A stretch of DNA of 64,000 nt from Diphasiastrum complanatum (taxonomy: Eukaryota > Streptophyta > Lycopodiopsida > Lycopodiales > Lycopodiaceae). The stretch covers positions 23,810,872 through 23,874,871 of the forward strand of contig CM055112.1 in the NCBI GenBank assembly GCA_029204225.1. Direction: 5' to 3'. The position numbers and the translations under genes were made by a program. Shown here piece by piece: positions 51,881-63,416 of the stretch. The notes below the pieces were generated by a model, which was given only the letters and a program-made list of their open reading frames with translations, had not been told where the DNA came from and searched no databases. The stretch's first letter is position 1. The number at the start of each line of letters is the position of its first letter.

Positions 51881-52205
51881 AAGTGATGAAGTAAATGATT
51901 GGGAAGATTGGACGTACTTGTTATAAATGCAATTTAGCTGATGAAATAATGAATTTTATTTCGGACATAGATAACAACTGATGCTCAGCTATGACACCTG
52001 TCTTCCTCACGCGACTAGCTTGTGCAGTTTTGTTGTGTGGGACGGTGGTAGGTAACAGCTGGACGTCTTAAAACTTGCTTTGCTTCATGGTACTCTGTAT
52101 TGTTAAACTTTATACAATTGTATTTTTACCTGTTATGCTATAAATTGAAGGGTTCAAAGGGTTTGGTCTTGACTTGTCAAGAGGGACTATGTGAAATATT
52201 GGTAT
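51881..52205 (+). repeat. 5' module of Penelope-like copy 1
   Basis: About 320 bp with roughly 90% identity by eye to 57757-58077, and partly shared with 5.1 kb and 62.0 kb. It contains GTGATGAAGTAAATGATTGG, CACCTGTCTTCCTCACGCGA and GTGGTAGGTAACAGCTGG, the last a splice-donor-like word. It lies about 200 bp before the first open frame of the element, where a promoter or leader is expected. Confidence 0.85.
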
Positions 52206-52400
52206 TCTCTCTCTAGCATCTCTGATGCCACCTCGACTACCCTTTGGGCGGGGTAGTACCAAACCTTTAGCTTGTATTTTATGGCTAACAAGGTCTGTTG
52301 TATGGTGTAGTCCACATGATGGTTTCATGATGCAGTGACTCTTGGCTATGGGGAGCTCCTTCCTCCTCCTAGTCCTTTTGTTTAGACTATTATATGTTGC

Positions 52401-53429
52401 ATGAAGAAAGCTGTTGAAGTTCACAAATTGATTACTACTTATGATATGACTATTTGTAATGCTGCTGGCCCAGATGATAAAATTCTTTGCATTGTTGATT
52501 TGATGTGCATCGTGGATTGGATCAAAATTTATACGGATTTTATTAAAAAGAAGAAAACCCTTAGCATAGTTGAAAAAAATTATATGAACCTCTCAAACTA
52601 TGCTGAACGAATTGCTGCTGAGGAAAAGTTCTGTAATACGCATATTCGAAAAGTATTTGCTTGCCTGGAAAAAGAAAATGGTGACTCCTGTATTGATATC
52701 CCTGTCCTTACTACTGCTCCTACTCCACCTCACCCTTTGATTTTTACCGAAGACCTTGATGAAGACAGTGCTTCTCAGTTAGAGTCCTTCTCACAAGAAA
52801 TCTGTGATGTGGGAAATCAATCTACCTTTGAATTTTGTCAGGACAATAGTTGCCAAGTACCATTTGTACCAAGTCGTATCATTGAGTTTAAATTTGCAAA
52901 AACTGCTTATAAACTTTGGAGCCTTCTCTCTGTCAACTTCCTTGCACCTATCTCTATTGAGCTCTGGATCGCTCTTGCTCATCTCATTGATGTAGAAGTC
53001 CAAGCGTGCAAGCTTGCTGCTTTGCATAAGAATCCTTATTTTGATACTCCTACTGCCTTTAATATTGTCATCAAGATGAGTAGATTTGAACCTTCAAGAT
53101 GTCCTTCTGAGCAGACCTGGGTTAGAACTAGAGGCCATTTTGACACTGGCTTTAACAGAATGAACCTTCATCAAGCTACAATCTGGAACTGGAAAAGACT
53201 TTTCTTTAAGTGCAGATGCGATGGTAAATGCAAAAGCAATTATTCTAACATATGGTTTGATCACTCTATTTGGTACATTATGAATAATCTTTCCATTTTC
53301 TTTCCTGGTGTGTCTCTGCAAAATCAGCTTAATGTCTTCTTCCTTTGGTTGCGTAAACCTGCTAGAGAGGTTGTCAAGTCCCACCTTGTCTTTCTGTATA
53401 TCTTGATGCTGTCATTGAACTTTCCATAA
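52401..53429 (+). CDS. First open frame of Penelope-like copy 1, unknown protein
   Basis: A 342-codon frame with no domain I recognise. It has no GIY-YIG motif. A Cys cluster CRCDGKC lies near residue 272, and a Pro-rich stretch (TTAPTPPHPL) near residue 105. It stands upstream of, and on the same strand as, the reverse transcriptase, so it is probably the element's own ORF1 or N-terminal domain. Related sequence continues in another frame to about 53710, so this copy is not intact. Confidence 0.55.
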   Translation: MKKAVEVHKLITTYDMTICNAAGPDDKILCIVDLMCIVDWIKIYTDFIKKKKTLSIVEKNYMNLSNYAERIAAEEKFCNTHIRKVFACLEKENGDSCIDIPVLTTAPTPPHPLIFTEDLDEDSASQLESFSQEICDVGNQSTFEFCQDNSCQVPFVPSRIIEFKFAKTAYKLWSLLSVNFLAPISIELWIALAHLIDVEVQACKLAALHKNPYFDTPTAFNIVIKMSRFEPSRCPSEQTWVRTRGHFDTGFNRMNLHQATIWNWKRLFFKCRCDGKCKSNYSNIWFDHSIWYIMNNLSIFFPGVSLQNQLNVFFLWLRKPAREVVKSHLVFLYILMLSLNFP

Positions 53430-53839
53430 ACCCTAATGCTAAGCTCCTTGCACACCTTGGTGACGTTGAAAATGTTCAAGAAATTGAACGCCTTTTGAAA
53501 AAACCCAGCTTCTCTACTTTGCAAGACAAATACTTCCATAATATTAGCAAAAAAATGGGTTCCTTCAATCTGAACAATCCAAGCTCAGTCATATCAGGCA
53601 GTGGCAATAACAGGAAGAGAAAGTACTTTCCGAACAAAGGCAAAGAAGGGCAAAGCAGTGGTGGTAAGGGGGATCTTCCTATCAGAAAGCTGAATTTTTA
53701 CCGTGATTGATCCATGTGCAGGAGGACATAGAAGAAACAAGGATATTGGAGGTCAGCAATAATGGTAGACGACAACTAGTAGTTAGAAGAGACAGAGGAA
53801 AGTTTTTTTTGCATTTACGTTATTATAACAGATGCTTTG

Positions 53840-61520: not shown

Positions 61521-61529
61521 ACTCATGAC

Positions 61530-61949
61530 AAAAATAAATTGCAAACAATCTAGAATCATTCTATATAGATTTATTTGCTTCTGGTTTATATTGTTATAAC
61601 ATATTAAAAAACAACCCAAGCAATTTCCAAAAAAATTGGTACTTGAAAAGAGGTCATTACATATAAAAAAAGTTGAATGTCAACTTTTATTTTTTAAACT
61701 ATGTTTTCATTTATCATTACATAATTTCCAAATTAAAGTATTAGAGTCACAAACATATGAAACATTGTAATGACGTCACATATACCTTGCCTGTTATAGC
61801 ATTCTCAAACAATATCAGATGAAGTTCCAAGACTAAAATACATGTTCAGTGCATTCTAGAATATTGAACCTTAACTTAGATGTAATTGTCTATGAGGCTA
61901 GCCTTCTTTTCTAGTTTAAACCTATAATATGAGACACTACATTGGAAAT
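61530..61949. other. No recognisable gene
   Basis: AT-rich spacer without coding frames. Confidence 0.5.
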
Positions 61950-63288
61950 AACTAGTGGCACATGTCATAAAGACTGGACTATGACTGATAAAAGCTATTT
62001 GTGTTGTTAAGTAGTATAGCTTCTTTTGGACATGGATAACAATTGACGCTCAACTATAACACCTGTCTTTCCCACTGTACTAACTCGTGCGATTTTTTGT
62101 TGTGGGATGGTGGCAGTATCAATTGCTGTTTTTCTAGGCTTGCTAAGTTCTTGACAGGTGCTCTTGGTGTGCTATATCCTTTCATTATGAAAGGTGCAGG
62201 CCTTAAGGCAAATACATACAAGAGCGTCCTAAATAGGAATACATCATTACTATGGCAATGTGATTCATCTATCAACTTCTATCTAAACTTAGCCGATTTC
62301 ATATATACCATGAAAGCTACTGATATCTCCAAATGTTACGAAAATATTCCTCTGGACGGAATTGACGGTTTGAAAACTATAACGACATAACTGATTGGTT
62401 CTTCATTTAAGATTGCCAAAATCAAGATACTCAAATACATACATATATCTGGGACAAATGATTTTAAATGGGGTTCGAAAAGAGCAGTTTCGGATGAATG
62501 GAATACTATAGACAAGGATACGCTATGCAAATGGAATTTCTACTTGATCAACAACTGCATTGTCAGACTTGGAAATCATACCTGGTGACAGGTCCGAGGA
62601 ATACCTATGGATTTTTTGTGCTCACCAATGTGGTGTAACTAGTACCTTTCTTTTCTTGAAATGCAGTTTATTAAGAGACTGGCAAGATTAGGTCAAATTA
62701 AATTTATAAACAACTTCAAGTACTCGTTCAAATACATCGACGATGCTTTATCAATAATCATACAATCAGACGTTTCCTAGACAAAACTCAACCAAGAACA
62801 CTTGACAGTCCTTTTTGGATCTATCCCTTGGAATACCTTGAGATAGATGGAAATGATACTATAAGTAATTCGATGAACTTTCTGAATATCACAATTTCTT
62901 TCGACCCAATTATTGGGCGAACACATATGTCCAAATATAATAAAAGAAGAGACCTTCCCTTTCTCTTTTTGCAATACATACACCTAGCCTCAAATAGACC
63001 TGTGTTTACTTCATACAAGGTCATTATTTCGCAAACAATAGCAGCCATGTATTACTGCAATAAGCAAGAAACTTTTCTTAAAGAGGTACGAACACTTGTT
63101 GATACCTTTCAGAACAATGGCTTCTCGCGAGATAAACTTTGTCTGATCATAAACAAACTGTTATATCGTGAAGTTTTTTCCGGACTACTATTTGATTTGC
63201 CTAAAAACATTGACATTCAGTTAGCTTTCCCTTAGAGGGAGCTGGCTGCCCCCTGAGGGATTCACTAATTGTGGGTATGGTTGTGGGT
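61950..63288 (+). mobile_element. Penelope-like copy 2, internally deleted
   Basis: The 5' module (61950-62121, GGATAACAATTGACGCTC and CACCTGTCTTTCCCAC) joins directly to the middle of a reverse transcriptase (LAKFLTGALGVLYPFIMKGA, 62130-62215). Motif A region KATDISKCYENIPLDGIDG (62308-62365), the motif B equivalent, the DNA for KYIDDA (62730-62750) and the final block FLNITISFDP, then YNKRRDLPFLFLQYI (62880-62990) follow. The last frame, 62828-63235, is open for 135 codons. Protein similarity to copy 1 is clear but moderate, so the two are different lineages of one family. The copy is not intact. Confidence 0.7.
63218..63288 (+). promoter_or_regulatory. 3' stem-loop and tail of Penelope-like copy 2
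   Basis: CAGTTAGCTTTCCC (63218-63231) pairs with GGGAGCTGGCTG (63237-63248). It uses two G-U pairs and one two-base bulge, with loop TTAGA. The tail ends GGGTATGGTTGTGGG and runs into (CT)n, as in copy 1. Confidence 0.8.
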
Positions 63289-63416
63289 TCTCTCTCTCTC
63301 TCTCTCTCTCTCTCTCTCTCTCTCTCTCTCTCTCTCTCTCTCTCTCTCTCTCTCTCTCTCTCTCTCTCTCTCTCTCTCTCTCTCTCTCTCTCTCTCTCTC
63401 TCTCTCTCTCTCTCTC
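63289..63416. repeat. (CT)n at the 3' end of Penelope-like copy 2, 128 bp
   Basis: Uninterrupted CT array that starts at the same point of the tail as in copy 1. Confidence 0.97.

Follow-up and report, generated by a model that had tools for sequence, protein, structure and literature searches.

The window, a 64-kb stretch of the Diphasiastrum complanatum genome, lies at 23.8 of 46.4 Mb on its contig (G000:C21). Two diverged Penelope-like elements (PLEs) were found on its plus strand. Copy 1 (51881–58077) is 5′-truncated and consists of part of a 5′ pseudo-LTR (pLTR), ORF1, a reverse transcriptase (RT) ORF, a tail, (CT)28 and a 3′ pLTR, as delimited by a direct repeat and by genomic copies. 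A short (CT)4 motif (52207–52214; (CT)4–6 in other copies) marks its pLTR/ORF junction and is the proposed start of reverse transcription. ORF1 (52386–53710) and the RT ORF (53711–55726) are both broken in copy 1. The ORF1 frame, which may begin somewhat upstream, carries a CxCxxxC motif and no known domain; the RT ORF carries a CTC (CxC) motif and the RT motifs DIAKCYENIP, GIPMSFVCSP and YIDD. The tail (55727–55815) contains a strong hairpin (GGGCAGTTAGCAC...GTGCTAACTGCC) and ends in GTGGGTT. It is followed by (TC)28 (55816–55871), the internal junction between the ORF tail and the 3′ pLTR. The 3′ pLTR (55872–58077) starts with ATGGGCT and ends with GTGAAATCTT, and a (CT)n array (58078–58146) separates it from other flanking sequence, TAAAAACACACAC.

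Copy 2 (62021–63288, start placed by eye) belongs to a diverged family with an internal deletion and comprises a pLTR-like region, an RT core and a tail. Its (TC)64 array (63289–63416) forms the junction between the tail and a pLTR start. The sequence behind this array (63417–63647), followed by a second CT array (63648–63734), is seemingly another pLTR start, probably of a further subfamily; by eye, it resembled what follows the 3′ (CT)n of L012 (L-numbers are labels of genomic loci sampled by similarity). The pieces of the RT ORF were confirmed to stop at 55726 and 63235, as the first-pass annotation of this DNA had stated. The arrays that it had placed directly after both tails (56 and 128 nt) were recovered by TRF as 100% matches, and GTGGGTT stands immediately before the array at the switch point common to both copies. 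Its shared tail of about 70–90 bp does not fit copy 2, since the tails measure 89 and 53 nt, respectively, from ORF stop to array.

Other features were observed in and near the window. An ORF between the two elements (60418–60777) matched ribosomal protein S6 (Pfam E 2.9e-17), and minus-strand ORFs at 11037–14087 and 46112–47872 resembled, by eye, copia-type gag and polymerase. An inverted, nearly identical version of the copy 1 region including its flanks lies 240 kb away (L009, G000:C21:24101745–24111618) and is either a segmental duplication or an assembly duplicate.

A direct repeat of 300 bp with 93% identity (51880–52179 and 57758–58057) had been missed in the first-pass annotation. Its second unit runs into (TC)n at 58078. 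The 2.2-kb pLTR is composed of the block 55872–57757 and the stretch holding the 300-bp repeat (57758–58077), and it is also present upstream of the ORF, as in L019/L050. The layout of the unit is pLTR (2.2 kb, start CATGGGCT), (CT)4–6, ORF1, RT ORF, hairpin tail, (CT)n and pLTR. On its 3′ side, the element truly ends where the pLTR ends; in copy 1 this is at 58077, next to another (CT)n. The searched genome comprised 1.745 Gb in 5176 contigs, and the RT similarity search returned 5735 first-look candidates, 111 of which were scored. By this count, the family seems to be very large. Two hallmarks of PLEs were present, namely pseudo-LTRs and copies in tandem or partial tandem, and the elements probably form a large, old PLE group with several subfamilies.

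The hairpin in the tail of copy 1 (55733–55815) had a z value of −4.9, and a similar pattern occurred in diverged tails. About 265 nt into the pLTR, a TATA-like CTATAAAG is followed by a CT-rich stretch (56137–56210), a possible promoter and leader. The same kind of layout was seen in L080, L087 and L088.

The sequence following the RT tail was investigated in the 20 best-scoring of 1007 candidates, excluding the window itself; the copies examined were among the best-scoring, not a random sample. The tail met a CT-rich array in all 20 further copies. The expectation of (CT)n in nearly all collected copies was thus borne out in this sample. In 16 of the 20 copies, the array led into the beginning of a common block (ATGGGCTCTGTTA...; first bases lost in L013 and L014). 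In L016 and L022 it led into an inner part of that pLTR block, and in L020 and L021, which represent one duplicated site, into other sequence. Because 18 of the 20 copies go on into the 2.2-kb pLTR, the arrays after the tail are internal to a pLTR-ORF-(CT)n-pLTR unit, and those at 55816 and 63289 are not the insertion 3′ ends for which they had been taken. Among 12 RT copies at 59–77% identity, seven had the tail, then (CT)24–99, then a pLTR-like start (CATG in six of the seven). The tail array was not found in the other five within the 2.7 kb examined.

The ends of the pLTR were investigated in 20 new windows, from 40 scored of 3435 candidates. Two were internal and 18 terminal, the latter representing 14 distinct sites after merging duplicates. 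Twelve of the 14 ran directly into (CT)9 or longer; L040/L041 had (CT)4, about 10 nt and then an array, and L029 had (CT)5 only. Nine further distinct terminal ends (11 rows, the window being equal to L009 and L024 to L026) ran into CT arrays of 56–169 nt, and no flank was common to the two sets. Direct joining to (CT)9 or longer was therefore found at 21 of 23 distinct 3′ ends. The idea that the family ends on or inserts into (CT)n holds at these true ends, but the arrays originally named for it are internal. At terminal pLTRs, the junction sequence continues into a long CT array, beyond which lies other sequence. The array was followed by an apparent further pLTR start, by eye, in L012, L024/L026, L031, L047 and L048, indicating that elements stack. 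The junction offset varied: the array began after GAAAT, GAAATCTT, CTTGT, CTTGTT or, mostly, CTTGTTA.

In all 11 internal loci, some of which are duplicates, and in the window, the pLTR/ORF junction carries (CT)4–6, most often as GTGAAATCTTGTTA-(CT)4–6-AGCATC. It has a short CT motif only, unlike the long arrays at terminal pLTRs. Distant relatives keep (CT)5 at this junction, as GTAT(CT)5 in L104 and GTAA(CT)5 in L105, with ORF1 dS to L103 of about 1.6 and 2.1, respectively. The PLE group probably integrates into (CT)n·(GA)n microsatellites by priming on its CU motif. A preference for inserting into microsatellite DNA that is open or bent, with no CU-motif priming and with the motif as a relic of one ancestral insertion, is a rather improbable alternative. 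It would agree with the microsatellite bias reportedly shown by the related Naiad/Chlamys elements. It would also agree with the frequent landing of TEs in microsatellites described in a review (PMC12477314). However, most ends join at the CU motif, and (CT)5 has been kept in L104 and L105 despite their divergence in ORF1.

The starts of the pLTR were examined in 20 cases, from 40 scored of 966 candidates. A CT-rich array preceded the pLTR start in 20 of 20, with (CA)n at its inner edge in four (two sites). Upstream of that array, 14 loci (10 sites) had other flanking sequence, two had a pLTR end and four an RT tail. L050 and L024 likewise had a pLTR start after a CT array. CT arrays at both outer ends were found in L019/L050 and L071/L042, paired by coordinates. 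Of eight 3′ windows of 5′-junction loci, one (L076) reached the pLTR/ORF junction, another (L072) had not yet left a pLTR, and six contained other sequence. All five 5′-truncated copies examined lack 5′ (CT)n (window 51881, L010, L012, L015/L049 and L011/L051), and no CT run of more than three units occurred in the flank inspected. This speaks against integration into CT arrays: cutting within such an array would be expected to leave CT behind, so these copies require the assumption that the target was deleted or later rearranged.

These truncated copies would also suit an explanation in which the terminal (CT)n is carried or made by the element, so that the CT arrays are products and not targets. 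The arrays would then arise from RNA reading into flanking (CU)n or from telomerase-like repeated copying of the CU motif; the start-site motif is indeed CT, and PLE RTs are telomerase-related (PMC3846280). This explanation is unlikely, since (CT)n borders full-length elements at both ends, and other flanking sequence lies beyond it. Compound arrays before the pLTR start, (CT)n(CA)n in L060–L063 and (CT)n(CCCTCT)n(CT)n in L059/L066, also argue against it, as does the absence of GTTA at the 3′ join of window copy 1, L042 and L045.

A further argument against CT arrays as products came from the repeat to which the sequence 5′ of L060 belongs; its search gave 2048 first-look candidates, 40 of which were scored. 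The repeat (L060:171–386, minus strand, with paralogues L092–L101) is unnamed and ends near ATTAATGACTAACG, often followed by (CT)n; in several copies, PLE sequence lies behind the repeat end. Ten paralogues of this target, all extending to the boundary or almost to it, were checked against 17 PLE sequences. A PLE match behind the boundary was absent from six of the ten, representing four sites (L092/L093, L094, L096 and L098/L099). The first three of these sites had (CT)43–78 at the boundary; L098/L099 had (CT)6 there and (CT)26–37 about 55 nt on. Among the other paralogues, the CT-rich flank of L095 runs into a truncated PLE RT, L097 and L101 (the same site) have a short PLE match behind the CT array, and L100 has (CT)8 and then, by eye, an apparent pLTR start. 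With CT and no PLE match in six paralogues and PLE-like sequence in four, this target therefore contained CT even where the element was absent and received more than one insertion. The first-pass annotation had asked whether empty sites already held (CT)n. The comparison answers this for the paralogues of one site family, the L060 5′ flank, but no single-site empty allele was found.

The 64-kb window contains 12 CT arrays of at least nine units. The eight outside both elements and the 63648 array make up 0.8% of the window, so the same-point joining in homologous copies is not due to chance. It is also very improbable that CT arrays are merely frequent and that duplication of a few master copies passed the joins on. 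Duplicated sites do exist and CT arrays are common, but 23 distinct 3′ and 10 distinct 5′ flanks remained after duplicate removal, against 0.8% of the window in other CT arrays.

The proteins of the element were then compared. ORF1 has 456–470 aa in the open copies L103, L104 and L105, and its identity between distant families is 58–65%. The dN/dS of ORF1 was 0.09–0.23 in 8 of 10 pairs, those with dS above 1. No Pfam family matched ORF1. The RT ORF contains CTC, motif A (DIAKCYENIP), a long spacer, GIPMGFACSP and YIDD; motifs A, B′ and C are thus present, with about 90 residues between A and B′. The C.C motif before the RT was found in eight of nine proteins covering it (window, L012, L019, L081 and L088–L091; not L080). 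The RVT_1 match was weak, 3e-06 for L091 and below the curated cut-off. The PDB sequence search gave no RT match and no relevant match overall, and the AlphaFold models of RT and ORF1 had a mean pLDDT of 33–34, too poor to use.

No GIY-YIG domain was recognised by Pfam in the ORF1 and RT proteins, in agreement with its reported absence from both window copies. A loose motif scan gave 0 matches in six frames of 16 stretches, several of which were only parts of elements. A C-terminal GIY-YIG after the RT, as in the canonical PLEs Penelope, Neptune and Dryad, was not found in the window copies, where (CT)n follows 89 and 53 nt after the RT ORF, and the same tail follows the RT ORF in the sampled genomic copies. 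A strongly diverged GIY-YIG domain in the family is possible. No hammerhead or other known RNA was detected over the window at Rfam gathering cut-offs. An Rfam match in the pLTR (E 1.8) was a chance match.

Naiad/Chlamys are reportedly PLEs with an N-terminal endonuclease, a CxC linker before the RT and a long A–B′ spacer. By these features, the CxC motif and the A–B′ spacer of about 90 residues point to Naiad/Chlamys rather than to Athena/Coprina. The long spacer is also the observation that bears on the insertion-in-fingers domain of Naiad/Chlamys. Pseudo-LTRs, tandem arrays, microsatellite bias and the lack of a detectable hammerhead are further likenesses to Naiad/Chlamys, as these are said to be defined. 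In contrast to Naiad/Chlamys, GIY-YIG was not recognised here, a separate conserved ORF1 is present, the junctions are nearly all in one dinucleotide repeat, and a conserved CT motif lies at the pLTR/ORF junction. Telomere-proximal location, a trait of Athena and Coprina, was not seen as judged by spread, with matches on 22 of contigs C1–C23. The novel traits are junctions almost exclusively in (CT)n, conservation of the CT motif, the absence of any recognised nuclease, and ORF1; a microsatellite bias in related PLEs was reportedly known already. Among the literature matches listed, there was no report of PLEs joined to (CT)n. Chlamys is described in Ectocarpus (PMC12477816), and plant PLEs have been named from conifers and Selaginella (PMC9033089).

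On integration into (CT)n·(GA)n, the nicking, priming and joining would proceed as follows. In the Anolis PLE, reverse transcription starts within the RNA, close to the pLTR/ORF junction and at a site without homology to the target (PMC11167929); a comparable internal start is proposed here. The primer would be a nicked (GA)n strand of a CT microsatellite, whose 3′ end would anneal to the (CU) motif or, now and then, to a nearby UCU. The variable junction offsets fit a (GA)n primer finding different UCU sites, as expected. A full-length cDNA would end at the pLTR start and then be joined back to the remaining (CT)n. Points against this model are that (CT)n could in part be copied from the RNA, that L029 has no more than (CT)5 at its 3′ end and that no nuclease was recognised. 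Since (CT)n precedes the pLTRs, old copies would serve as fresh targets, building head-to-tail arrays. The Poseidon element of Anolis, PAc (PMC11167929), likewise has pLTR-ORF-pLTR tandems and starts reverse transcription near the pLTR/ORF junction, as is proposed here.

C-rich repeats in terminon RNA are said to help attachment to G-rich telomeric overhangs (PMC12477314). With Athena/terminons and other endonuclease-lacking PLEs, the present family has in common the absence of a recognised endonuclease and a short RNA repeat complementary to the repeat DNA that is joined. It differs in that the DNA here is dispersed internal (CT)n microsatellites, whereas there it is telomeric G-rich overhangs. 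A tentative and bolder possibility is an endonuclease-free Penelope lineage acting like a telomerase for microsatellites. It would use breaks or nicks in (GA)n·(CT)n, tracts known to form triplexes and to break, together with a built-in CU template, form self-renewing (CT)n-linked arrays, and have ORF1 as a new partner protein.

One element shows both a template motif and the matching target repeat, at dispersed sites. Because the family seems very large and the junctions are sharp, primer choice by a telomerase-related RT is testable here. An endonuclease-free lineage priming on microsatellites, if true, would connect telomere-bound with dispersed PLEs in functional terms. The PLE family may also help explain the many long CT arrays of the Diphasiastrum complanatum genome.
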